A DNA stretch of 64,000 nucleotides, taken from contig NZ_JAAFYZ010000003.1 of the NCBI RefSeq assembly GCF_018274385.1, positions 62,001 through 126,000 on the forward strand. The letters are read 5' to 3'. Below the pieces are notes generated by a model. The model was not told the DNA's origin and made no database searches. It saw only the letters and a list, made by a program, of their open reading frames with translations. This document shows positions 1,014 through 32,839 of the stretch, piece by piece; the stretch's first letter is position 1, and every line of letters starts with the position of its first letter. The stretch comes from Catenulispora pinistramenti. Lineage in GTDB: Bacteria; Actinomycetota; Actinomycetes; Streptomycetales; Catenulisporaceae. Position numbers and translations under genes: made by a program.

Positions 1014-4000
1014 GTGCATAAGCGTTTTCGGGTGGGGTTTTGTCATGCGCTCTTACGGCGACGGCGGGCGGTTTCAGTCCTCGTTTCCGGCGCCTTGGCC
1101 GGCTCGGCCCTTTCGATGCCGATGGCTTCTGCCTCGGCCTACTCTGCGGCGTCTATCAAGTCGGTTCCTCTTCCGGTCTACGCCGGTTCGTGGGATTTAC
1201 ACTCCCCATTGGGGGAGCGCGATCGGGAGGATGCCTGCCTGGCCGGGCAGCGGCTTCACGTGAGTGGTCCGGCGGTACAGAGCGTCGCAGCAGCCTTCTT
1301 GGTAGACATCCTAAAGTCGGACGACTTTGACCAGTCGGTCAAGGACGATGCCGCGCAGCAGGCCGCTTGGGACAGCTCGCAGGATTCGCTTCGATCGTCG
1401 GACCAGGCGATGTTGGCGAGGTTGCCGGTCCCGACCGCTCCAGGCCAAGCCCACGGCGACTCGTTGGTGATCGACTGGCCTGACGGCGCTGACGTCGCGT
1501 GGGCACAGATCCCCGACTACAACGGGCCGGTACGTACCTTCTTGGACCAGCGCGCAGCCAAGGAAGCGGATCCGACCTCCAGCTATCCCGACGTGGTGGT
1601 CCCAGCTGACCAGCCGGCCTTGGACAAGGCTAAGGCGATCGTGTCATCCAGCACGGACCCTTTGCTCACCGCCGCGGGCGGACTGCGGGACAAGATCGCC
1701 AATTCCTCAGGGGGGCACTACGCGACCGATGCCGCCGACATCGCCGAGTTCGTCACCATCGGCGGGTTCCCACAGAGCGCGCCGGATCCCAGTTCGCTGG
1801 AGTTCCGGACCGATGTCGAGGCGATCAAGGCGCGATGGGCTTCCTGCACCAGTTCCAACCCATGGGATCCGCGCCAGGTACTAGGCGGCGAGGTCCAGGT
1901 CGCTCAGGACGAGTGGGAAGATGAGCTGGAATCGCAGAAGAGCCAGCGTGATGACATCGTCAACGCCTCTATTGCGGCTGCTGCTGACCTGCAAAAGGCC
2001 AACGATGCGATGGCCGACGCGATGGCTCAGGCCTACATCGCCCAGCGGATCACGGTCATCGAACGCTACATCGGAGCGCATTCCACTCCGGGGCCACCAC
2101 CGACGCATACGATCTGCACCTGGTCCACATGCTCGCCTGATGCTGTGGACTGGGTGGCCCCGATCGCCAATCGGACGTGCGATGGGAACCATCAGTCCTG
2201 GTGCGATCTGATCCCGACGATGAACGCCGATATGGACGCCATCGGCAGGGCGATGTTCGGTGATCTGAGCACGGCCAACAGTGCGCAAGCTGACGCCGTG
2301 GCGAAGGCGGACCAGGTCAGCGCTGATGAAGCGACCGCAGGCGACATTGCCAAGGCGAACAACACTCCGTACGGCCGGGGCCTTGCCTATGCGTTGCAGT
2401 CGGCCCAGGTCACCAAGGCCAGCGCTGCGGCTGCCACGGCCGCGGGGCAGGCAGGTCTGAGCGCTTGGGACGCCGCAAAGGCTGGCGCGAGCGATGCGAT
2501 GACGCTGTGGGCGTTGTCGGACACCCGGGCCCACGCTGTCCAGGCGCAGTTCTCGAGGGCGGAGGCTGAGGAAGCGGCTGCTCAGGCGCATGCTGCTGCT
2601 GGCGCTGCGGCTGCGCAGGCCACTGCTGCCGCAGCTAGTGCCACGGCCGTGCACACCGACCGGGTCACCGCCGAGGCTGCCTTGTCCGCTGCCCAGGCCA
2701 AGGCCGCAGTGGCCAAGGCTAAGCGGACTGATGCCGACACCCAGGCCGCCACTGCTGCCTCTGCCCGGGGTGACGCTGCCTACCAGCAGAGCGCTGCGGC
2801 TCAGGCCGAGGCGACCGCGCGTACCCAACAGGACATCGCAACGAAGGCCCATCAGGATGCCGACACCGCAGCGGCCCAGGCAGCGGACAAGCAGAAGACT
2901 GCCGATGCCGCCGAGCAGAAGGCGGCTGATGATCGGTACGCCGCACAGCAGGCGCAAGCGGCTGATGACGCTGCCAAGGCCAAAGCAGCCGCCTTCGACG
3001 CGCAAGCCCAGGCTCTAGCTGGTTCGGCCGCTGCCGCGATGGCAAAGTCCTCGGCAGACCAAGCAGACACTGACGCATCAACTGCCTCCAATGCCGCAGC
3101 CACCGCTCAAAGTGCCGCTGACGCCTCCACTACCGCTGCTCAGGCTGCCCGTGCGGACGCGACTCGGGCAGCCGGGGCTGCGGCGAAGGCGAAATCCGAT
3201 GCCTCCGCTGCCGATGCTGCCGCAGCCGGATCCCGCTCTGCCGCCGCGAACGCACATGCCGCCGCCGCCGACGCGATCAAGAACGCCGCAGCAGCAGCGA
3301 ACAACGTGGCCCAAGCAACCACCGATGCCACGGCAGCCGAAAACGATGCCGCCACAGCACTCAACCAGGCCGGAGAAGCCGCCAGGGACGCAGACGCAGC
3401 GCTGGCCACAGCGAACAAGGCCGCCGGCTATGCGGCCGCTTCCGCCGACTATGCGACCAGCGCCCGCGACGCAACACATGCAGTCGCGGTCTCAGCTGGC
3501 CAAGCAGTCTTCTACGGCACGCCATATCAGCGCTCCGACGCCACCGCCGGCCTAGCGGTTCTGGTCGCCAACAACGCAACGAGCTTGTCTGCACGACAAG
3601 ACGCGGCAGCTGCGGCAGCCGCAGCCGATGCCGCTCGGGCAGCAACTGACGCCCACAACCTGGCGACCCAAGCCAGTGCCGATGCCAAGGCCGCCGCGAC
3701 AGCTGCCGATAGCGCGGCCAGCGATGCGTTGTCCGCTCAGAACTCACTGGTCGCCACTCGGGCATCAGCCAGTGCCGCATCAGCTGATGCCGCAGCCACC
3801 CAAACTGCGGACAAGGCCGCAGCTGCTGCTGCCGCGGCCGCAACCAGCGATGCTTCAGCAGCAGGCAGGGATGCCAGCTCCGCCGCCGCAGACGCGACCG
3901 CCGCTGCGAACTCCGCTAGCGCCGCCGAGAAAGACGCGGCCGGTGCACACGCCGCTGCCGACGACGCGTCCGCCCAGGCAACCGCTGCTCAGGCAGCAGC

Positions 4001-5537
4001 CAAAGCAGCACAGGACTCAGCCACCGCGGCTGCTACAGCTGCCGCCAACGCCGCCGCCGACGCTGCGGCAGCCGAGAAGGCGGCGGAGGACGCCGAGGCC
4101 CGAGTCCGGGCTGAAAACCAGGCCGCCGAAAGCGTTCTAGATACCAGGTACGGCAGTGATCAGGCTGCTGCTGACCAGCAGGCCGCCGCCGACCTACTCT
4201 CTGAGATTCCGCCGGACCGGTTGGCGGCCTTGCGCGCCGACATTCAGATGTACATGAGGGAGAGTCCGAACGACTGGAACGATCCAACTTCCAATGCCAA
4301 CAAGGCTCTGATGGTCCGGGTCAGATGGGCTATCGAAGGCAACCTGAGCCTGACAGAGATATGGGATGCCGAAAAGGGCCAAGCTGTCGGGCTGTTGGTC
4401 AGCACGGTTGGCCTGGCACTATGCCCCGAATCTGCTGGAGCTACCTGTCTGGCAGCGGTCGGAGCTATATCGGGCGCAGCCGCCGCTTGCGTTGAGGACT
4501 GTTCAGACGTCAAAAACGTAGCATTGCAAGCAGTTGTCTCGGCGGCCTTGATGGCCGGAAGCGGAAAAGCCGCCGATATTCTGGCATCGACGATTGCCAA
4601 AAGGATCACAGACGACGAGGTGGCAGCCTTCGTCTCAGCATGTGTCAAACCGCACAGCTTCGCCGCTGGCACCGGGGTCCGTATGGCCGACGGGACAGTG
4701 GAGCCGATCCAGGACATTCGTGTCGGCGACGAGATCTCAAACGCAACTCCGGGCGCCGCTGAAACAGAGCAGCACCGGGTCGAGCAGGTCCACACGACCT
4801 TCACCGATACAGACTTTACAGATCTGACCGTCCAGACCCCTGACGGCGAAGACACAGTCACCGGTACCCAAAACCACCCGTACTACGACCTGAACGCCGA
4901 AGCCTTTATCGACGCGAGCAAGCTTGGCATCGGAGACAAGCTGCAGTCGACGTCCGGTGCGGCCGTGACCGTGCTGAATGTTCGCAACTACATCAGCTCG
5001 ATGGTCACCTATGACCTCACCATCGAGGGACTGCACACCTATTACGTAGTAGCTGGCACGACGTCTGTCCTCGTGCATAATGATTCATGCCGGGACGGTA
5101 TTCTCGCAAAACTTCCCGCCCGCCCTGGGAACAACGGACCGACTGTCGGAATTGCAGTCACCGACGGGGGCGTCGAACTCCCGATGGTGGATAGCTCGAA
5201 GTCCGGTGACCCTTCCTACCCCGCGCTGGCGCGTCGGGTCAGCGATCGGCTCCGGCAGTGGAACCTCCTGCAAGGTGCAGCCGTTTCGGCGCGCGCTTAC
5301 GATGTCGAGCAGACTGTCGCTGCGATGATGCTCAACGATGACGGTACGACCGCGATCAAGAGCGTCAATCTGGTGATCAATAACGCCACCGGGCCCTGTA
5401 TGGTCGAACTTGGTTGTAATATGGCTCTGCCGTATATTCTCAACGATGACCAGACTATATTCCTCCATTGGAAGGACGCTACTGGTAAATGGCGTACCGA
5501 GCCGTACAGGGGCCTGAACAAGACGAAGAAGGGTTAA
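1014..5537 (+). CDS. Secreted polymorphic toxin: Ala-rich coiled coil + HINT + DddA-like deaminase
   Basis: This 1507-residue protein starts at GTG 1014, with GGGGAG five bases upstream. Residues 1-45 form a signal peptide (RRRR, then a hydrophobic stretch, then Ala-rich). Residues about 420-1070 are an extreme Ala/Asp/Gln-rich coiled coil. A hydrophobic segment follows at about 1125-1175. A HINT (Hedgehog/intein) self-cleaving domain runs from C1210 (CVKPHSFAAGTGV) to LVHN ending at residue 1356. The last 150 residues match the SCP1.201/DddA-like cytidine deaminase family (PF14428): an NGPTVGIAV start, then DVEQ, then PC(5)C and an L-P-x-x-L motif. The catalytic Glu (E1432) and both Cys (C1462, C1468) are present, but the first zinc ligand, normally His, is Asp1430. 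By family knowledge the tip is released by HINT cleavage and deaminates nucleic acid in a rival cell. The immunity gene follows two bases later. Confidence 0.88.
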   Translation: MHKRFRVGFCHALLRRRRAVSVLVSGALAGSALSMPMASASAYSAASIKSVPLPVYAGSWDLHSPLGERDREDACLAGQRLHVSGPAVQSVAAAFLVDILKSDDFDQSVKDDAAQQAAWDSSQDSLRSSDQAMLARLPVPTAPGQAHGDSLVIDWPDGADVAWAQIPDYNGPVRTFLDQRAAKEADPTSSYPDVVVPADQPALDKAKAIVSSSTDPLLTAAGGLRDKIANSSGGHYATDAADIAEFVTIGGFPQSAPDPSSLEFRTDVEAIKARWASCTSSNPWDPRQVLGGEVQVAQDEWEDELESQKSQRDDIVNASIAAAADLQKANDAMADAMAQAYIAQRITVIERYIGAHSTPGPPPTHTICTWSTCSPDAVDWVAPIANRTCDGNHQSWCDLIPTMNADMDAIGRAMFGDLSTANSAQADAVAKADQVSADEATAGDIAKANNTPYGRGLAYALQSAQVTKASAAAATAAGQAGLSAWDAAKAGASDAMTLWALSDTRAHAVQAQFSRAEAEEAAAQAHAAAGAAAAQATAAAASATAVHTDRVTAEAALSAAQAKAAVAKAKRTDADTQAATAASARGDAAYQQSAAAQAEATARTQQDIATKAHQDADTAAAQAADKQKTADAAEQKAADDRYAAQQAQAADDAAKAKAAAFDAQAQALAGSAAAAMAKSSADQADTDASTASNAAATAQSAADASTTAAQAARADATRAAGAAAKAKSDASAADAAAAGSRSAAANAHAAAADAIKNAAAAANNVAQATTDATAAENDAATALNQAGEAARDADAALATANKAAGYAAASADYATSARDATHAVAVSAGQAVFYGTPYQRSDATAGLAVLVANNATSLSARQDAAAAAAAADAARAATDAHNLATQASADAKAAATAADSAASDALSAQNSLVATRASASAASADAAATQTADKAAAAAAAAATSDASAAGRDASSAAADATAAANSASAAEKDAAGAHAAADDASAQATAAQAAAKAAQDSATAAATAAANAAADAAAAEKAAEDAEARVRAENQAAESVLDTRYGSDQAAADQQAAADLLSEIPPDRLAALRADIQMYMRESPNDWNDPTSNANKALMVRVRWAIEGNLSLTEIWDAEKGQAVGLLVSTVGLALCPESAGATCLAAVGAISGAAAACVEDCSDVKNVALQAVVSAALMAGSGKAADILASTIAKRITDDEVAAFVSACVKPHSFAAGTGVRMADGTVEPIQDIRVGDEISNATPGAAETEQHRVEQVHTTFTDTDFTDLTVQTPDGEDTVTGTQNHPYYDLNAEAFIDASKLGIGDKLQSTSGAAVTVLNVRNYISSMVTYDLTIEGLHTYYVVAGTTSVLVHNDSCRDGILAKLPARPGNNGPTVGIAVTDGGVELPMVDSSKSGDPSYPALARRVSDRLRQWNLLQGAAVSARAYDVEQTVAAMMLNDDGTTAIKSVNLVINNATGPCMVELGCNMALPYILNDDQTIFLHWKDATGKWRTEPYRGLNKTKKG

Positions 5538-23552: not shown

Positions 23553-24176
23553 ATGAGCGTGCGAAGGTTCAAAGGCCTCATCTTCGACTTCTTCGGCGTC
23601 CTGACCTCGAACATGGTCGAGGTCATCGAGTGTTTCGAGGACCGGGAGCAGATCCCGCGCGGGACGTTCCTGCGGGCCTGGGCCGATCCCCGCGGCAAGG
23701 AGCTGTTCACCCGCCTGGAGCTCGGCGAGATCAGTCAGACTGACTGGAACCAGGGCTATGCCACGTTGATGGGCGTCGCTCCGGATGGTTTAATGTCCCG
23801 CTATCTCTATGACGCATTCCCGGCTCACGAGACGCTGAAGTTCGCGCGACAAGCCCGATCGGCCGGCTACAAGACCGCCGTGTTGTCTAACTCTCTGGGG
23901 CGCACCCCCTACGATCCATATGCGGGTTTCGATCTGCGGGGGATCTTTGACGAAGTAGTGCTGTCCGAGGATCACGGAATGCGCAAACCAGATCCTGCGG
24001 TCTTCCACCTGCTCCTGGATAAGCTCGACGTACGGGCCGAGGAGTGCGTCTTTGTAGACGACTCCGAAGAGAATCTTCAAGCGGCTGTCGAGTTGGGCAT
24101 GACAATCGTGTATGCGGCCGACGAAAGGAAGCTGGCGTCGCGGCTGCGAACGCTGCTGGAACTACCCGTCCTGTAG
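23553..24176 (+). CDS. HAD-family hydrolase
   Basis: This is a 207-residue protein with all HAD motifs: I FDFFGVL, II VLSNSLG, III RKPDPAVF and IV FVDDSEENL. Motif I has Asp followed by Phe-Phe-Gly, as in the epoxide hydrolase N-domain/phosphatase-like subgroup. The helical cap between motifs I and II is short, as in subfamily I. The substrate is unknown. Its 3' end overlaps the convergent regulator gene by 15 bases, which suggests long association with the next locus. Confidence 0.85.
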   Translation: MSVRRFKGLIFDFFGVLTSNMVEVIECFEDREQIPRGTFLRAWADPRGKELFTRLELGEISQTDWNQGYATLMGVAPDGLMSRYLYDAFPAHETLKFARQARSAGYKTAVLSNSLGRTPYDPYAGFDLRGIFDEVVLSEDHGMRKPDPAVFHLLLDKLDVRAEECVFVDDSEENLQAAVELGMTIVYAADERKLASRLRTLLELPVL

Positions 24177-25451
24177 GAACGCCCGCACGGTGGGATGACC
24201 GCGGTGCTCGCCAAGCTGGCGGCGCAGCCTGGCAAGGGTCGAGGACGAACGTGCCGATTCCACCGAGCCGAGACATTTGCCGGCGTGGCGCGCCTGGTCG
24301 ACTGCGGCGTCCAAATCGTGGAGGGCCAGGTGTGCTTCAGCGGCGCGGGCGAGATAGATCGCGTGGCCCTTCGGGTACTGCACCTCTTCGGGGGACTCGG
24401 CCCGGACCGCCGTGTTGAAGCAGTGCACTGCATGTGCGGGATCGCCCAGCTCCAATGCCGAGGAGCCGGCGATCATCTCGATTTCGCCGCGCGTGACCCA
24501 GTACAAGTACTCCGGGTCTTCGTCTGAAGGCCCAAGGTCAAGCAGGTCTCTGGCGGTCGTGAGGGCCTGGGCGCAGCGCCGCCGGTCGCCCGCTTTCGAA
24601 AGGGCGCGAGCCTTTCGCGCCGCGAGCATTGCCCGCATGCGGGGTGTGGCTCGATGGCGAGTTGTCTCTTCCGCGGTTTCCAAGAGCTTCACGGCGTCGT
24701 TCGGATCGCCTTCGGTGTAGTGCTGAATGGCCATGAAGGACATTGAGTACGCACCGGTCAAGACGTCATTTGCCTCTGCTGAGGATCGCAGTGCCATGTG
24801 ATAGTACTGCTCTGCTGCGGCGTGACGCTTGTTGTCGAACAAATTCCACGCCACCTGCCGTGAGGCTTCTGCCGCCAGGGAATATGCGCGGCTCTCGGTG
24901 GTCGCTTCCAGTCCTCCGGCCTCGAGAAGACGGGCTAGCAGAGCTAGCTCATTGCGGGCCATACGGGCCATCTCGCCGCTATCGAATTCGTCGTCGAGAT
25001 GCCGCAGGTATTCGAGGCGTTCTTCGATGTGGCCGACCAGTTTTGGCACGTCATCCGGTGCCGTGTCGCTTACTTCAACCGGTCTGACCTGCTTGGTGAG
25101 GGCGTCCGACCAGTGACCGACCACTGCGGTCAGGGCTGTGCCAGATGTGACGATGAAACTCCGACGGTCCACACCGCCTCCTGTTGCCATATCCGCCAGG
25201 ATCGTCAGTGCCTCCTGGCGGTTCCATGGTGCCTCTTGCCTTCTCGGGCCGTCGACCGCGTTGCTGAATTCGCCGCCGGTCGCCAGGACCCGATCGTAGG
25301 CTCTGGCGACATCGCTGGTGAGCGGTTTGGTCCCGTTCTCGACGTTGCGCAGGTAACTCTCGGCGTACCCCGCCTCTCGCGCGAACGCGGCGAACGTCAG
25401 CCCGGACCGGCGCCGTGCCGCCCGCAAATCGTCTCGAAGCTCGTCCGCCAT
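24162..25451 (-). CDS. HTH regulator with TPR-like C-terminus (RRNPP-type layout)
   Basis: This 429-residue protein starts at ATG 25451. An XRE/Cro helix-turn-helix occupies about 8-60 (LTFAAFAREAGYAESYLRNVENG), followed by about 350 residues of helical hairpins (for example YSLAAEASRQVAWNLFDN), consistent with tetratricopeptide repeats. This layout is that of actinobacterial HTH-TPR regulators and of RRNPP peptide receptors. It is divergent from a 44-residue peptide gene and its modifying enzymes, and tandem repeats lie in the shared promoter region. It probably controls that operon. Peptide sensing is a hypothesis. Confidence 0.75.
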   Translation of the reverse strand: MADELRDDLRAARRRSGLTFAAFAREAGYAESYLRNVENGTKPLTSDVARAYDRVLATGGEFSNAVDGPRRQEAPWNRQEALTILADMATGGGVDRRSFIVTSGTALTAVVGHWSDALTKQVRPVEVSDTAPDDVPKLVGHIEERLEYLRHLDDEFDSGEMARMARNELALLARLLEAGGLEATTESRAYSLAAEASRQVAWNLFDNKRHAAAEQYYHMALRSSAEANDVLTGAYSMSFMAIQHYTEGDPNDAVKLLETAEETTRHRATPRMRAMLAARKARALSKAGDRRRCAQALTTARDLLDLGPSDEDPEYLYWVTRGEIEMIAGSSALELGDPAHAVHCFNTAVRAESPEEVQYPKGHAIYLARAAEAHLALHDLDAAVDQARHAGKCLGSVESARSSSTLARLRRQLGEHRGHPTVRAFLQDG

Positions 25452-25474
25452 GATGCCGCCCTTGTCAGAAAAGG

Positions 25475-25497
25475 GATCGCCTAGGGATCGGTCTAGG
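25475..25497. promoter_or_regulatory. Tandem operator candidate in divergent promoter region
   Basis: Two adjoining direct repeats, GATCGCCTAGG (25475-25485) and GATCGGTCTAGG (25486-25497), also form an inverted CCTAG...CTAGG pair. They lie 24 bases upstream of the HTH-TPR gene start and about 85 bases upstream of the peptide gene. They are the best visible binding site for that regulator. Confidence 0.4.
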
Positions 25498-25580
25498 TCA
25501 TTGTTCCTCGTCCGGTGACGCGGTGTGCTCATTCCGGCGCAGATAGCGTCGGAGTGTTGAGACTGCCACAGGAGGACACC

Positions 25581-25715
25581 GTGGACCAGACCACCATTGA
25601 CGAACTGTTCGACGGGCCGCTCGTCACCGCGGTCCCGAGCGGGACGCTCGTGGAGAAGTCGCCGGGCGACGGCGACGGCGAGGACAAGGGCGACTATTGC
25701 AGCGTGCAGCGCTGA
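25581..25715 (+). CDS. 44-residue candidate precursor peptide
   Basis: The ORF starts at GTG 25581 with an excellent AGGAGG site (25570-25575) five bases upstream. It encodes an acidic leader-like first half (MDQTTIDELFDGPLVTAV), a middle SGTLVEKSP, then a Gly/Asp/Glu cluster (GDGDGEDKGDYC) and a C-terminal SVQR. It has no signal peptide. It begins the operon with the asparagine-synthetase-like gene 92 bases downstream. In lasso peptides a cyclase of that fold joins a peptide N-terminus to an Asp/Glu side chain, and the acidic cluster could serve. The usual Thr before a lasso core, and the B1/B2 genes, are missing. Identity as a RiPP precursor is inferred. Confidence 0.6.
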   Translation: MDQTTIDELFDGPLVTAVPSGTLVEKSPGDGDGEDKGDYCSVQR

Positions 25716-25807
25716 TCCACTGACTGCCGCGTCCGGGCTGGCGCACTTCTCGTGCGCTCCGCGGGCCCGGGCGCGGCTTCCCCCACCGCCAACGCGCAAG
25801 GAACCCC

Positions 25808-27262
25808 ATGTTCAGTTTCGATATCTCGACGGTGACGGACGGCTCCGTCACCTGGAGCCGTGACGGAGACGCGTGGGTCGGCCCGGCCGGCTGGGTGCGG
25901 CCCTTCGAACATCCGGCGTTGCAGGCGACAGCGGTCGCGGACGGCGCCAGTCTGTGTCTGACAGTCGCTGAACGGTGTGAGAAGCCAGACTTCGTGCGCT
26001 TGCACGTCGATGGTTCCACGGTTGCCGTGGAGGCGGGACCGCTTGGTCGTGCCCCTGTCTACGTCCGGTACCGGAGCAATCGATTGGCGGGCGGCTGGCG
26101 TCTCAGTGACCTGATGGAGGGCTTGTCGGTCGGCGCCGTGAACGGCCGAGAGCTGACGAGGCAGCTGACTCGCCGCCATCGCTACACGGCCGACACCGTC
26201 TTCGACGGCGTCCTGCGTCTGACGGAGCGCGCTCGAATCAGCGTCGGCGCATCGGGCTTGCGGGTCCAGTACCCGGAGCCCGTCGAACGCCCGATCACGC
26301 GGCGTGCCCTGAAGCCCGGGATCGATCCGGTGGCGGTTCTCGGCGAATTGCTGGGCCGGCATGTGGAAGAGCGGCCCGTGGACGGGGTCGAGTTGTCGGG
26401 CGGGGCCGACTCGGCGCTCGTGGCCGCCGAGGTCGTCCGAGCGTCCGGTCGTCGAATGCAGAGCTTTGGGCTGGTCATGCCTGGTGAGCAAGGCCTCGCC
26501 CAAGCGAATCGTCGTGCTGGGATCGTTGAGGGGCTGAAGCTCGCGGACAACTCGATCCTCGCGGCGGCGTATCCGCCGTTCGGAGCCGGTCGGCGCTGTG
26601 GGTTGCACGACCCGGCCAGCTCGTATTACTGCGAGGCCTTCGACGCGCTTGCCGCCGTGGCCGGCACCCTTGGCGTGCGTGTTATGGCGACGGGTTTCGG
26701 CGGCGACGAATTGATGGCTTGTCCCGCCGAAGCGCAGCCGACGCCAACCGAAGAGGTATTGCCTGCCTGGCTCAGTGTCAAAGCACGTACGGAGGCGCGG
26801 GAGCTGGACGACGACTTGGCGCCTTCAGCGCATCTGTGCACGCCGACCCTGATGGCGGTTGCCTCACATGCCCCTGGCCTGCTCGCTGCCGGCATCTGGC
26901 CGGTCGCCCCGTTTGCGGACCCCGCGCTGACCCGGTTCTGCCAGCAGCTTCCTGAGGACCTGGTAGTCGGCAAGCGCCTGCTGCGGCATCGCCTGGCCCA
27001 GTACATCCCCAAGCGGATCGCCCACAAGCCATCTCCGGAGACGTTCCGCCCTGTGATGCAGATCGGGATGCGACGATTTGGCCTCCGGCTCCTCGGCGAC
27101 TACCTCAAACGCGGCATGCTGCTGGCGGACCTCGGCTTCGTCGAGCCCTCGGAGCTTCAGGCGGCGGTCCATGCCGCGAGTGCCGGTTCGACGGTTGATT
27201 CCCGGTTGGCAGATGTCCTGCGTCTGGAGCACGGACTTCGTCAGGCGTGGGGTCAGCTGTGA
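25808..27262 (+). CDS. Asparagine-synthetase-like enzyme (lasso cyclase-like fold)
   Basis: This is a 484-residue protein. The C-terminal synthetase domain has the PP-loop motif LSGGADSAL at 196-204 and TGFGGDELM at 294-302, so it should adenylate a carboxylate with ATP. The N-terminal domain corresponds to the glutaminase fold but begins MFSFDIS, with no Cys at position 2, so it cannot release ammonia from glutamine. The same loss occurs in lasso peptide cyclases and beta-lactam synthetases, which make amide bonds with an internal amine. It lies directly downstream of a short acidic peptide gene and overlaps a methyltransferase gene by four bases. The likely substrate is that peptide (inference). 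Confidence 0.82.
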   Translation: MFSFDISTVTDGSVTWSRDGDAWVGPAGWVRPFEHPALQATAVADGASLCLTVAERCEKPDFVRLHVDGSTVAVEAGPLGRAPVYVRYRSNRLAGGWRLSDLMEGLSVGAVNGRELTRQLTRRHRYTADTVFDGVLRLTERARISVGASGLRVQYPEPVERPITRRALKPGIDPVAVLGELLGRHVEERPVDGVELSGGADSALVAAEVVRASGRRMQSFGLVMPGEQGLAQANRRAGIVEGLKLADNSILAAAYPPFGAGRRCGLHDPASSYYCEAFDALAAVAGTLGVRVMATGFGGDELMACPAEAQPTPTEEVLPAWLSVKARTEARELDDDLAPSAHLCTPTLMAVASHAPGLLAAGIWPVAPFADPALTRFCQQLPEDLVVGKRLLRHRLAQYIPKRIAHKPSPETFRPVMQIGMRRFGLRLLGDYLKRGMLLADLGFVEPSELQAAVHAASAGSTVDSRLADVLRLEHGLRQAWGQL

Positions 27263-28020
27263 CAAACTCTCCCAAAATGGAACATCTGAAAGAGGCGTCG
27301 CTGCTCTACCGGGAGCCGGCGCTGTATGCGCAGATGACTGACGCCGACGCTATCGACAGGGCCGCTGCCATCATCGCTCTAGCCGCCGTTCACGGTCCGT
27401 CCGGTGCCAAATCCGTGCTGGACCTGGGCTGCGGCACCGGCGCGGTCCTGGAACAGCTGGCTTGCACGTACTCCGATCAGGCAGGCGTCGACCTGCTGCC
27501 CGGAATGATCGACATCGCGAAGAAGCATCGCCCGGAGCTGGACCTGCGCGTTGGTGATATGCGTACGGTGCGTCTAGGCCGGTCCTTCGACGTTGTGATC
27601 TGCGTTGGCAATGCCCTGGCATACCTAATCGAGCCCGAGGACGTCCAGGCAGCCTTCGCCACCTTTGCCGAGCACTGCGTTCCCGGGGGCCTGTTGATCA
27701 TCCAGACACCCACCGTTTATCCCCCACTGGACAGGAACCGGAACGCGAAGGCGGAGGTGTCCGGACGGCATGCGGGCGTCGTGATCAGGTACACCCGGGA
27801 TCCAAGGGACGAGACATTCACCATGACTCGTCACTGGAACTTCGAGGACGGTGAGCGCACAACAGACGTGGTCCGTCGACGTGTCCTGTCCATCGAGGAG
27901 CAAGCGGTGTTCGCCAACTCGGTCGGCTTCACCCACGTCTGGCGGAGTACTAGGGACGGCGTAACTGTCTTCCACCGCGAAGGCGTGGGTGGTCCGGGGA
28001 CGGGAGCTGCTAGTGGCTGA
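27259..28020 (+). CDS. Class I SAM-dependent methyltransferase
   Basis: This 253-residue protein starts at GTG 27259, overlapping the synthetase stop by four bases. Motif I is VLDLGCGTGAVL. An acidic post-I residue (AGVDLLPGM), motif II/III regions (FDVVICVGNALAYL) and a post-III GGLLIIQTP follow. This is a small-molecule/peptide O- or N-methyltransferase type. Strict coupling with the synthetase suggests it acts on the same product. Confidence 0.85.
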   Translation: MTNSPKMEHLKEASLLYREPALYAQMTDADAIDRAAAIIALAAVHGPSGAKSVLDLGCGTGAVLEQLACTYSDQAGVDLLPGMIDIAKKHRPELDLRVGDMRTVRLGRSFDVVICVGNALAYLIEPEDVQAAFATFAEHCVPGGLLIIQTPTVYPPLDRNRNAKAEVSGRHAGVVIRYTRDPRDETFTMTRHWNFEDGERTTDVVRRRVLSIEEQAVFANSVGFTHVWRSTRDGVTVFHREGVGGPGTGAASG

Positions 28021-28309
28021 GACGCCGAAAGACTCTGTCCTCCTGTCCCTCGCGAAGGAGGGCTACAGCGGGAGCTACGGCGTCTTGCTGCTGGTGGCAG
28101 TGCTGATGGGTACGAACCCTGATGAACTGAGGCCTGAATCGGACGCGGAGCGGGACGAGTGGTCCGGGCACCTTCAGGGACTGCGCTCGGCGCTGACGTG
28201 CGTTGCGATACACGAGGCGAAGCTCGAACCCGGCGATGCGGCGGCCGTGGTGCAGCGGCACATAGAGGACGCAGCTCAGGTCATGGGCCGATCCCGCGGA
28301 TCGAGGTGA
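28013..28309 (+). CDS. Small hypothetical protein of the peptide locus
   Basis: This 98-residue protein starts at GTG 28013, overlapping the methyltransferase stop by eight bases, with CGGGAG upstream. It has a hydrophobic stretch, YGVLLLVAVLMGTNPDEL, then charged helices (DEWSGHLQGL...). No family is recognised. Overlap with the enzymes makes it part of the same operon. Confidence 0.6.
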   Translation: MAETPKDSVLLSLAKEGYSGSYGVLLLVAVLMGTNPDELRPESDAERDEWSGHLQGLRSALTCVAIHEAKLEPGDAAAVVQRHIEDAAQVMGRSRGSR

Positions 28310-28318
28310 GGCGCTGTG

Positions 28319-28741
28319 ATGCGCGGGTCTCTGACCTGTCCAGGACACGCCGAGCACCTGTCGGACGTGCGCAAGTTCATCCTCAAGGTCCTCGGTGACG
28401 TGCCCGGCGTTGATGTCGCTGAACTGGTGGCGTCGGAGCTGGCGGGCAACGCGATCGTCCACTCGGCGAGTGGTGGGCCGGGTGGGTCCTTCACGCTGCA
28501 TGTGGAGGTGCTGGCCGACCGCTGGCTGATACGCGTGGACGATGCCGGCGGGGTGACCGAGCCGCGGGTCCGCTGCGCCGACTCCGGGAAGGACGAGTCC
28601 GGCCGCGGGCTGGCGCTGGTGTCCGCGGTGTCGCTGGAGTGGGGTGTGGTCGGCGGCTGTGACGCGCGCTCGGTGTGGGCGGCCGTCCCGATTCCGGTGC
28701 GTCCGCAATCGGAGTTGAGTCTTGCTTCTTTGGCGACCTGA
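28319..28741 (+). CDS. RsbW-like ATP-binding regulator (HATPase_c_2)
   Basis: This 140-residue protein starts at ATG 28319 (or GTG 28316). Its N-box VASELAGNAIVHSA, G1 box VDDAGG and SGRGLALVSAVS are those of anti-sigma-factor ATPases. It is the last gene of the peptide operon, ten bases after the preceding gene. Its stop is followed by half of a hairpin split by a transposon at 28759. Confidence 0.75.
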   Translation: MRGSLTCPGHAEHLSDVRKFILKVLGDVPGVDVAELVASELAGNAIVHSASGGPGGSFTLHVEVLADRWLIRVDDAGGVTEPRVRCADSGKDESGRGLALVSAVSLEWGVVGGCDARSVWAAVPIPVRPQSELSLASLAT

Positions 28742-28758: not shown

Positions 28759-29128
28759 CTACTGAGGTTCAAAGGGTGATGTCGTCAGGGTGAGTCCGGT
28801 GCCGGCTTGGGCGATGTCGATGAGCCAGGATCGGTACTGGATCGCGCGTAGTTCCTGGCGGATGGTGGCGATGGGGTGTTCCGGGTCGGCGAACGCGGTG
28901 TTGGCCAGGTTCCGGCGGATCAGCGGCCAGATGCCCTCGATCGGGTTCAGTTGTGGTGCGCAGGCTGGCAGTTGGTAGATGGTCAGCCAGTCGCGAGCGG
29001 CGATGTACTGCTTCATCCCGGCGGTCAGGTGGGTGTTCAGGTTGTCCCAGACGAGCATGATCGGGCCGCCGAGCTGGGTATGTGCCACGCCGATTAGATC
29101 CTGGTAGCCGGTCCGGGCGAAGCTTTTG
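28759..29128 (-). pseudogene. IS630-family transposase, 3' fragment
   Basis: The minus strand encodes the DDE C-terminus: LVWDNLNTHLT with the second Asp, then PAPQLNPIEG-type QLPACAPQLNPIEGIW with the catalytic Glu. The fragment stops at the shared edge near 29128. The first catalytic Asp and the DNA-binding part are absent. The bases beyond, to 29253, remain open but are unrelated. Confidence 0.8.
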
Positions 29129-29277
29129 TAGGAGTGCAACAGCTCGGTCATGCCTGCTGTCAGTCCTTGTCCATACAATCCGTTTGGAGTGGTTGTACCT
29201 TGCCTCCGAATTGCTACCAGGGGGTGAGGCGCAAACTGCTGCCCAAGGAGCAAACCAGCTGATACGGGAGCACACGG

Positions 29278-30237
29278 GTGCGCAAGTCAGTCGAATTTGA
29301 GCAGCTGCTCGCCAAGATCGTGAAAGAGCTTGAGCCTGAGGCGGTCGTCACCTGGGACGATCACATCACGGGCAGGCTGTCCGGGCGCAAGCGCCAGATC
29401 GACGTGTCCATCAGCCGCGAGGAACCAGCCTTCCTCGGCATTATCGACGCGAAGGACTACAAGAGGCCGGCGAGTATCGAGCGCATCGACGCCCTCACCG
29501 GCGTCATGCGAGACGTTGGTGCCAACTACGGCGCGCTCGCGTGCAGTGGTGGCTTCGCCGAGTCGATTCACACCTACGCCCGCAACTGCGGTATCTCGCT
29601 GTTCAACGTCCACGACGCCGAGTCGGTCAACTGGTCGCTGGAGCTCAAGATCCCGATCCTCTGGTACGAGCTGATGCCGGTGGTCGGGATCGGCGGCAAG
29701 CCGTACCTTGAAGCTGGCGACAGTATCGTTACCGGCGATCCCCGCGGCATCCAAGTCACCGCTGATGGTGGGAAGACACTTATTGATCCAATGTCGACCT
29801 TCGAGCGGTACTGGAACGGTCCGACAGCCAATCGAGCCCCGGGGATGCGCCATCACCTAACCTCTGATAGGCCCGTCGAGGCGGTTGTGACTGACGCTGC
29901 GGGCAACAGGCAGTTGCGGGACCTCATGGACTACGCGATTGTCTACACGGTCCAGCCAACGGCCTGGCTGGGTAAGTTCCAGCCGGCTGAGTGCCGGGGA
30001 CTCGTTGACGTCCTCGATGAGCAGGCGTTCAACGTCTCTCACCTGCCAGACGCGGCCATCCCGATGCAACGTGATGACAGCTGGGAGATCCTTGAGGAGC
30101 CAGACAAGTTCGCCGTGACCGCGCGCGGGACGGCAGTGGTCTGTACAGCACCAGTACTCATTAGCGATCCCAAGATCACGTCACTCCGCATGACGCACCT
30201 TGAGTCGGGGATGACTGAGTGGTTCTCGCAGAGCTGA
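29278..30237 (+). CDS. Mrr-like restriction endonuclease domain protein
   Basis: This 319-residue protein starts at GTG 29278 with GGGAG upstream. The N-terminal 130 residues show a PD-(D/E)xK nuclease core: E near 18-21, RQIDVSI with D42, and IIDAKDYK with D57 and K59. Helices with DVGANYGALACSGGF follow, typical of Mrr_cat domains. The C-terminal half (about 150-319) is beta-rich and unrecognised. By family it may cleave foreign or modified DNA, cytoplasmically. It is carried with a VRR-NUC gene inside the composite element, so a mobile defence role is plausible. Confidence 0.72.
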   Translation: MRKSVEFEQLLAKIVKELEPEAVVTWDDHITGRLSGRKRQIDVSISREEPAFLGIIDAKDYKRPASIERIDALTGVMRDVGANYGALACSGGFAESIHTYARNCGISLFNVHDAESVNWSLELKIPILWYELMPVVGIGGKPYLEAGDSIVTGDPRGIQVTADGGKTLIDPMSTFERYWNGPTANRAPGMRHHLTSDRPVEAVVTDAAGNRQLRDLMDYAIVYTVQPTAWLGKFQPAECRGLVDVLDEQAFNVSHLPDAAIPMQRDDSWEILEEPDKFAVTARGTAVVCTAPVLISDPKITSLRMTHLESGMTEWFSQS

Positions 30238-31740: not shown

Positions 31741-32839
31741 CTACTGACCTTCAAAGGGCGTTGTTGTAGAGGACTGACAGCGGTCGGTTAAAGCGGTACG
31801 TCTGACGTGTGCGATATCCGCAAGGAGGTGGGCTGACCGCGGAGCGTCAGGCGTTCCGTGAGCAGATCCGGATACAGGCGGCCGGGCGGTTCGCCGCCGA
31901 TGAGGACAGCGCTGCTGTGGCCAAGGCGCTTCGGGTGCGCTCTGTGCAGCGTTGGCGGGCAGCCTGGGAGACCGGCGGTGAGGCGGCGTTGGTATCCAAA
32001 GCGTCGCCGAACCATCCGCAGCTGTCCGAGGCGCAGTTCGCGATGTTGGGGGCCGAGTTGGAGCGGGGTCCTGCCGCGCGCAGCTGGCCGGATCAGAAAT
32101 GGATGCCTGGCAGGATCACAACGGTGACCGGGCGTCGATTCCACACGTCCTACACCGTTGCCGGCGTCTACTACTGCCGTGCCGCCACGGCTGATCGACG
32201 AGGCTCCGATCACCGGCTGGATGCGGGAGATGTAGCCGGACGTGGAAACACCCGGGCGGCGTCCGCGGCCTGGTTGGTCTTCGAAGGCGAAGCCGGGTGC
32301 TCGATGACGCCGCCGCCCGCACCTGGTCCCGCCGCGGCCACACCCCAATCACCCGAGTGCGCGGACGCTCACGTCGCCGCCTGTCAGTGGCGGCACTGGT
32401 CTGCTACAAACCCGGTCAACGCTCCCGGCTCGTCTACCGCCCGGCACCGGACCGTCGTACCGACGGCCGCAAAAGCTTCGCCTGGACCGGCTACCAGGAT
32501 CTAGTCAGCGTGGTACATACCCAGCTCGGCGGCCCGATCGTGCTCGTCTGGGACAACCTGAACACCCACCTGACCGCCGGGATGAAGCAGTACATCGCCG
32601 CTCGCGACTGGTTGACCATCTACCAACTGCCAGCCTGCGCACCACAACTGAACCCGATCGAGGGCATCTGGCCGCTGATCCGCCGGAACCTGGCCAACAC
32701 CGCGTTCGCCGACCCGGAACACCCGATCGCCACCATCCGCCAGGAACTACGCGCGATCCAGTACCGATCCTGGCTCATCGACATCGCCCAAGCCGGCACC
32801 GGACTCATCCTGACGACATCACCCTTTGAACCTCAGTAG
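31741..32839 (+). mobile_element. IS630-type insertion sequence, decayed
   Basis: Left end CTACTGACCTTCAAAGGGCG and right end complement CTACTGAGGTTCAAAGGG form imperfect terminal repeats, with TA inside each edge. Length is about 1.1 kb, normal for IS630. The right 370 bp also serve as the right arm of the composite unit. Confidence 0.8.
31809..32839 (+). pseudogene. IS630-family transposase with frameshifts
   Basis: The N-terminal helix-turn-helix part (FAADEDSAAVAKALRVRSVQ) reads in one frame to about 32160. A FEGEAG segment with the expected first acidic residue lies near 32280-32300. The DDE remainder, from about 32310 to the stop at 32839, is in another frame (RTWSRRGHTP...LVWDNLNTHLT...QLNPIEGIW). 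A third frame with an internal stop covers 32200-32260. Several shifts mean it is inactive unless trans-complemented. Confidence 0.8.

Follow-up and report, generated by a model that had tools for sequence, protein, structure and literature searches.

The DNA analysed here (the window) is a stretch of 64,000 nucleotides from Catenulispora pinistramenti (genome 11.46 Mb; contig NZ_JAAFYZ010000003.1, positions 62,001 to 126,000, forward strand), and the system under study is a small gene cassette at its positions 25,452 to 28,741, in which a gene for a 44-residue peptide is followed by a gene for an asparagine-synthetase-like enzyme. On the plus strand the order is precursor, synthetase, methyltransferase and small protein, behind a divergent regulator of the NsdA family. 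We assign it as a cassette for a ribosomally synthesized and post-translationally modified peptide (RiPP), of a family that was not matched to a described class. The features are as follows, in window coordinates; L010 is the related locus in another genome of the genus, G005.

24162..25451, minus strand: divergent NsdA-family helix-turn-helix (HTH) and tetratricopeptide repeat (TPR) regulator, just outside 25452-28741 (NF053720, 250.4 bits, cut-off 75)
25532..25554, no strand: imperfect inverted repeat 5' of the precursor, candidate operator (read by eye in the window and L010)
25570..25575, plus strand: Shine-Dalgarno AGGAGG of the precursor, from the sequence
25581..25715, plus strand: precursor peptide open reading frame (ORF), 44 aa, MDQTTIDELFDGPLVTAVPSGTLVEKSPGDGDGEDKGDYCSVQR; start GTG 25581, stop 25713-25715; leader motif ELF, with the invariant Phe10
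25656..25658, plus strand: codon of invariant Lys26, proposed nucleophile
25674..25676, plus strand: codon of invariant Asp32 (i+6), proposed acyl acceptor
25692..25694, plus strand: codon of Asp38, nearly invariant (column kept at at least 90% in an alignment of diverse precursors)
25726..25777, plus strand: strong hairpin in the precursor-synthetase spacer, possible attenuator or processing hairpin (spacer -48.8 kcal/mol)
25808..27262, plus strand: asparagine-synthetase-like ATP-dependent ligase without Cys2, 484 aa, proposed Asp-activating macrolactam cyclase (PF00733, AlphaFold2 model, fold matches)
27259..28020, plus strand: class I S-adenosylmethionine (SAM) methyltransferase, type A tailoring enzyme (GTG start; PF13649, 64.2 bits)
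28013..28309, plus strand: small protein, 98 aa (GTG start; overlaps the methyltransferase end; 67% identical copy in L010)
28319..28741, plus strand: HATPase_c_2 (RsbW-like ATPase) ORF, not a core part

A first-pass annotation, made from the letters of the DNA alone, had already recognised the short ORF with its AGGAGG ahead of the synthetase and the divergent HTH-TPR regulator, and the family match now places the latter in NsdA. It had also described a coupled series running from the synthetase to the ATPase; the peptide and synthetase are indeed conserved together, with the methyltransferase at loci of the window's core type, while the small protein is shared with L010 only and the ATPase does not belong to the cassette. 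The methyltransferase start (GTG 27259) shares four bases with the synthetase stop. G005 keeps the order HAD, regulator, peptide, synthetase, methyltransferase and small protein, with identities to the window of 85% (HAD), 82% (regulator), 70% (synthetase), 63% (methyltransferase) and 67% (small protein), and there too the regulator is divergent to the cassette. Its precursor, MDLTIIDELFDGPLATAVPTQSQALAEKAPGDADGEDKGDHCSVQA, aligns to the window peptide with a two-codon gap. The same gene order and the aligned peptide indicate that the arrangement in the window is more than chance.

Precursor family and core types

A scan of the genome collection with the single window synthetase gave no match; a scan with a five-row alignment (A1) gave 51 loci, 47 of them in Streptomyces and one each in Kribbella, Catenulispora, Spongiactinospora and Actinomadura. 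Synthetase matches were found in five of the 14 genomes of the family, own included, in 37 of 391 genomes of the order (E 1e-10, partial matches included) and in 12 of 394 genomes of the class (1e-12), five of these already present in the order sample. The phylum-wide scan with alignment A2, scoring three candidates per genome, found two of 396 genomes at 1e-30, own included. The A1 loci, 27 from the order, 11 from the class, four family regions and the window make up 94 loci; matches in G035, G243 and G364 and a second match in G330 stand outside this set.

A recognisable precursor is present at 81 of the 94 synthetase loci. The co-occurrence of peptide and synthetase clade expected by the first-pass annotation is thus found, and homologues of the enzyme do not as a rule lack a conserved upstream peptide. 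Three of the 81 are atypical and were added by hand for the tailoring count only: L047, whose start was not recognised, and L054 and L099, both missing the leader motif. In eight of the 81, the final 600 bases of the synthetase are the same as at another of these loci; each of seven such repeats is a single locus present in two collections, and the eighth (L042, L078) comes from two contigs of the same strain. Upstream short ORFs were searched for with a loose K..G..[DE] motif, and picked a second time ignoring Lys and Asp altogether (30-80 codons, a Shine-Dalgarno sequence, an [LVFI]F pair in the first 70%). The precursor set, those picked minus L054 (broken leader frame) plus L037 and L038, which the automatic picking had missed and which were added by hand, has 78 members, of which 51 are distinct, with 26 distinct cores.

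Every distinct precursor has Lys-x5-Asp (i/i+6; 51/51). KxxGxxD occurs in 49 of them, the remaining two having Glu in place of Gly, against a mean of 0.875 of 51 in shuffled precursors. The distance from Phe to Lys spans 13 to 28 residues; that from Lys to Asp is constant at 6. In a separate set of 81 windows upstream of near-full-length synthetases, distinct from the 81 loci with a precursor, 76 ORFs pass the length, Shine-Dalgarno and [LVFI]F filters, and 75 of the 76 also have Lys-x5-Asp near the C-terminus (75/81 upstream windows). ORFs with leader and Lys/Asp pair are found in 0/81 of the same windows on the reverse strand and in 1/2954 tiled windows elsewhere in the loci; none lies upstream of 12 NF033561-matching cyclases or of three other PF00733 genes of the window's own genome, both with estimated starts. 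Phe10, Lys26 and Asp32 are the invariant columns among 18 diverse precursors. The first-pass annotation had offered the GDGDGED cluster as an acyl acceptor set; its second Asp (D32) proves invariant, and D38 further on nearly so, while the other acids are not, and the invariant Lys paired with D32 went unnamed. Ratios of nonsynonymous to synonymous change (pN/pS) of 0.30 within type A, 0.40 within type B and 0.49 between the window and L010 point to purifying selection. No Pfam or NCBIfam model matched any of six representative precursors. In the leaders of the L029 and L059 precursors, an in-frame repeat (GDLITGDLITGDLITG) stretches the Phe-Lys distance and leaves the core untouched.

The cores fall into three types. 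Type A ends in GD[HY]C and includes the window, L010, Streptomyces (DKMPGGGDNNGDHC) and Kribbella (RKAPGEYDANGDHC); type C reads KPxxxxDQG or KAAETSDQG; type B, defined as the remainder once GD[HY]C and DQG-type cores are removed, is mostly KKxSGSSDxxxTYDT. A methyltransferase relative lies 3' of the synthetase at all 50 type A loci, window included, and a GNAT acetyltransferase at most about 700 bases downstream, in either orientation, at all 27 type B loci; the four type C loci have neither (4/4). Without repeated synthetases the partition is 43 type A, 26 type B and 4 type C. At L071 (type C) an ABC transporter gene lies downstream.

The synthetase and the lasso layout

The window synthetase matches PF00733 at 43.3 bits (cut-off 21). 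As the first-pass annotation had read, it carries SGGADS, at residues 197-202, and lacks Cys2, since residue 2 is Phe. Across 24 aligned family synthetases G198, G199, D201, S202 and TGxGGDE are invariant, K389 is kept in 23, and S197 of SGGxDS is replaced by Thr in nine. Residue 2 is Phe, Leu or Ile in 24/24 and never Cys, a difference from asparagine synthetase B. The AlphaFold2 model has a pLDDT of 87.6 and a pTM of 0.88. Beta-lactam synthetase is the best solved-structure relative, both with Foldseek (1mc1, E 6e-16) and in a profile search (1jgt, E 1.4e-4). VIA-align places beta-lactam synthetase (Z 21.3) and carbapenam synthetase (21.1) level with TsnB9 (Z 22.6, 439 residues, root-mean-square deviation 4.3) and AsnB (21.0); the two-domain superfamily fold is recovered at Z 22.6 to 20.1 over 368-439 residues across these and human ASNS. 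Beta-lactam and carbapenam synthetases are similar in length to the window enzyme. Beta-lactam synthetase forms an intramolecular amide, as carbapenam synthetase does, and both act on small-molecule substrates.

Lasso cyclases (NF033561, the albusnodin/ikarugamycin family, and NF033535) belong to the same superfamily, have a precursor gene adjoining the enzyme, lack the glutaminase Cys, and adenylate an Asp side chain before amide closure, as we propose for this family. They differ in length, most of those compared having about 600 aa against 484-523 aa for family members in the alignment, and the window synthetase misses both family cut-offs (NF033561, 30.8 of 300 bits; NF033535, 14.4 of 525 bits). 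In a quick tree, which carried a long-branch warning, 36 non-redundant family synthetases form one group (SH-like approximate likelihood ratio test, SH-aLRT, 97), apart from 12 NF033561-matching cyclases (99). Four of these 12 references reach the model cut-off, and three (L104, L108, L111) have a match to the lasso leader protease family PF13471 within 1 kb. Next to the family, on a long branch, the same tree places L003 (G000:C2:33336-37019), a 428-aa PF00733 protein of the window's own genome preceded by an in-frame stretch that reads VAKKSKPGDGTEGCGVKGGGLYGAHF...; the automatic picking of upstream ORFs did not select this stretch, which is possibly part of a different peptide-enzyme pair.

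PF13471 (B2) was searched for in 38 of the 44 cassette genomes (all but G035, G194, G243, G372, G550 and G635). It is absent genome-wide from 22 of the 38, among them the window's own genome and the four others of its genus that have the synthetase. The remaining 16 carry it either on a different contig or at a distance of over 600 kb from the cassette, with the reservation that draft contigs may adjoin. In G015, G067 and G082 it stands beside a separate NF033561-matching cyclase. No PqqD-like (B1) match was found among nine neighbours in the window or in ten proteins scanned from other loci, and no Thr column, invariant or near-invariant, corresponds to the penultimate leader Thr in 18 diverse precursors. 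These tests agree with the first-pass annotation, which had seen no B1, linked B2 or conserved Thr. Its proposal of a peptide-modification system outside the lasso layout is also supported, given a peptide conserved with the synthetase clade, synthetases that group apart, and the 22 genomes free of PF13471.

Proposed ring formation and rival explanations

That the cassette is real and that precursor and enzyme belong together is well supported, and we regard it as highly probable. The best single explanation of the chemistry, to which we give a probability of roughly 0.55, is a Lys-Asp ring: an amide-forming enzyme together with an invariant amine and an invariant carboxylate at constant spacing argues for a Lys-Asp macrolactam. 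The precursor would comprise a leader marked by [LVFI]F and, behind it, a core of the pattern K-x-x-G-x-x-D. We infer that the synthetase binds ATP and activates the invariant Asp by adenylating its side chain, and that the invariant Lys, placed six positions ahead, supplies its epsilon-amine as the nucleophile, which would give a seven-residue side-chain-to-side-chain macrolactam (-18 Da). Because the nucleophile would be a side chain and not, as in lasso peptides, a freed N-terminus, the synthetase could act on the uncut precursor without a leader protease; this would account for the fact that neither a leader-recognition protein nor a protease of the lasso type is linked. The methyltransferase in the window, or the GNAT acetyltransferase in the other large branch, would then modify the peptide. 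Graspetides (microviridin and relatives) are made by ATP-grasp ligases, of which there is no match among the nine window neighbours. The predicted product resembles theirs in its side-chain-to-side-chain amide, graspetides containing side-chain macrolactones or macrolactams (PMC13097080). There is an even chance, in our view, that the family is a separate RiPP class across Actinomycetes, in which an asparagine-synthetase-fold enzyme would make a Lys-Asp macrolactam on an uncut precursor, reaching the graspetide product type by way of the lasso/beta-lactam-synthetase fold, with methylated and acetylated branches.

Several observations weigh against the Lys-Asp ring or the pairing behind it. No precursor was found at 13 of the 94 loci; eleven of these are partial synthetase matches (L033, L034, L066, L067, L072, L088, L089, L091, L100, L101, L102), L063 lies at a contig edge and L097 at a run of N, and the 13 still have a methyltransferase (6) or a GNAT (7). 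The leader frame of L054 is broken. All 51 distinct precursors have a further fixed acid behind Asp32, placed at +4 in 21 of them and at +6 in 30, which could itself be the acceptor or act as a second one; most type B cores offer two adjacent lysines. On the enzyme side, L047 has Glu at K389, and the AlphaFold2 input was 24 sequences only. Tyr348 of beta-lactam synthetase is catalytic; its equivalent by profile alignment is not conserved in the family, being Phe, Leu, Ser, Thr or Gly in the 24 rows, so that either the family uses another catalytic base or the alignment is wrong at this position.

Asp32 might instead be activated for an aspartimide or isoaspartate, or for amidation by ammonia or a small amine, with Lys26 serving to bind the active site. 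Gly and Asn after Asp favour succinimide formation, and the residue next to Asp32 on its C-terminal side is often Gly, Asn, Ala or Thr. The methyltransferase adjoining the enzyme in type A would fit as well, RiPP aspartimides involving PIMT-like methyltransferases (PMC13001092). The window methyltransferase, however, matches Methyltransf_25/11 and no PIMT family of Pfam or NCBIfam; its best NCBIfam match is the daptide model NF041820, at 58.9 bits below the cut-off of 175 (27.2 bits for the Streptomyces relative in L042), daptide methyltransferases likewise being class I SAM enzymes beside a precursor. Types B and C share the Lys/Asp pair without having the methyltransferase, and this reading gives no reason, other than a role in binding, for an invariant Lys at a constant spacing. 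We consider this route unlikely. A non-canonical lasso-type peptide would need an unlinked protease to cut before Lys26, the freed alpha-amine then closing a seven-residue ring on Asp32, perhaps with the tail threaded. A ring of seven is within the known lasso range, the cyclases share the superfamily, and NF033561 is the best NCBIfam match of the synthetase, although its 30.8 bits are level with the general asparagine synthase model (30.2). Albusnodin and triculamin are lasso peptides in which a Lys is acetylated (PMC13352647). Set against this are the distribution of PF13471 (absent 22/38, unlinked 16/38), the separate grouping of the synthetases, the variable residues before Lys with no conserved penultimate Thr, and tails after Asp32 of just 7-9 residues in Streptomyces and Kribbella type A cores; moreover, a first residue that contributes its alpha-amine alone need not always be Lys. 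This outcome strikes us as quite unlikely.

The peptide might otherwise be a carrier, the synthetase attaching an amino acid or amine to Asp for the methyl- or acetyltransferase to modify before release, much as pearlins are built on a carrier peptide (PMC9303977). An amide-forming enzyme paired with a small tailoring enzyme would suit such a scheme, as would the core, which is strongly kept within each type beside a more variable leader. We nevertheless hold it to be improbable: in pearlins other enzymes make the attachment, and at the C-terminus, a part that varies here in both sequence and length, while the conserved pair lies inside the peptide. It is most improbable, finally, that the system is no RiPP at all; the synthetase would then have a small-molecule substrate, and the peptide would be a signal to the HTH-TPR regulator or an upstream ORF with a regulatory role. 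TPR regulators can sense peptides, and type A loci usually have a divergent one from the sequence cluster of the window's regulator (29 of the 31 with wide flanks). Yet Catenulispora type B loci have similar precursors, with the Lys/Asp core kept, beside a regulator of another sequence cluster, and the tailoring enzyme varies with the type of core, as it should if the peptide is a substrate.

Regulation, neighbouring genes and significance

The divergent NsdA-family regulator probably controls the operon, and the inverted repeat upstream of the precursor, which by eye is perfect in L010 (TTCCGGCGC...GCGCCGGAA) and imperfect in the window, may be its operator. The spacer hairpin has a z of -3.05 in the window (equalled by one shuffle in 100; -2.62 for a longer segment). 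For this analysis loci were chosen by hand, 25 for spacer energy and 23 for the z test, the latter without L013, whose spacer was misplaced by the start estimate, and L043. The z is below -2 in 18 of the 23, and above it in L010, L039, L083, L084 and L093, with L083 and L093 lacking any hairpin; the hairpin was therefore dropped as proof of attenuation. The hairpin 3' of the precursor gene is similar to attenuators that hold a precursor in excess, and it may likewise keep this precursor in excess over the enzyme.

Of the 93 other loci, L010 alone has a match to the small protein in the flanks examined. The RsbW-like ATPase was dropped as a cassette part, since it is not 3' of the cassette in L010; upstream of that cassette there is a weaker relative (42% over 74 residues). 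Relatives of the HATPase_c_2 protein at 56-58% lie upstream of the Catenulispora type B cassettes L011 and L012, so that within the genus ATPases of this type are found near type A and type B cassettes alike. At the place of the window's ATPase, L010 has a 25-codon ORF after the small protein (6076-5999, minus strand; MSHVVRLDDIPLELGFFNHEFQMPQ, translated by eye). Between regulator and precursor, L042 encodes a small conserved protein without a Pfam match (5262-5486, plus strand), whose cluster, C3, has members in 23 loci.

Just downstream of the window cassette, two ORFs in inverted orientation (28759-29253, minus strand; 32297-32839, plus strand), with translations near-identical by eye over their shared part, are presumably IS630-like transposases, and they flank an Mrr-like nuclease gene and a VRR-NUC gene. 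The Mrr_cat gene is at 29278-30237 (plus strand), and another is directly downstream of the Streptomyces cassette in L042 (8211-9524). Upstream of the Streptomyces type A cassette of L043 there are (1201-3624, minus strand) a phage-type integrase and a gene that we take to be a replication-protein-like gene of an integrative element; genes of the L043 integrative-element sequence cluster occur in nine loci. Given these integrase-type genes, the cassette may travel with mobile elements.

Four precursor peptide strings had no occurrence in the open literature searched, in which subscription journals are mostly not covered, and the main text of the decRiPPter paper makes no mention of 'asparagine'. 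Together, the data suggest an uncharacterised family of ring-shaped peptides, recurrent among many soil bacteria and made by an unusual relative of the lasso and beta-lactam enzymes. If the Lys-Asp ring is correct, the fold that ties lassos, for which the N-terminus is freed first, would also make side-chain rings without a leader protease, and the cassette would achieve macrocyclisation simply, with two genes; since the Lys/Asp pair is invariant, this chemistry can be tested directly. The cassette is not rare in the order, and, with synthetase matches in 37 of its 391 genomes and six representative precursors matching no model, a widespread peptide family may be going unannotated.

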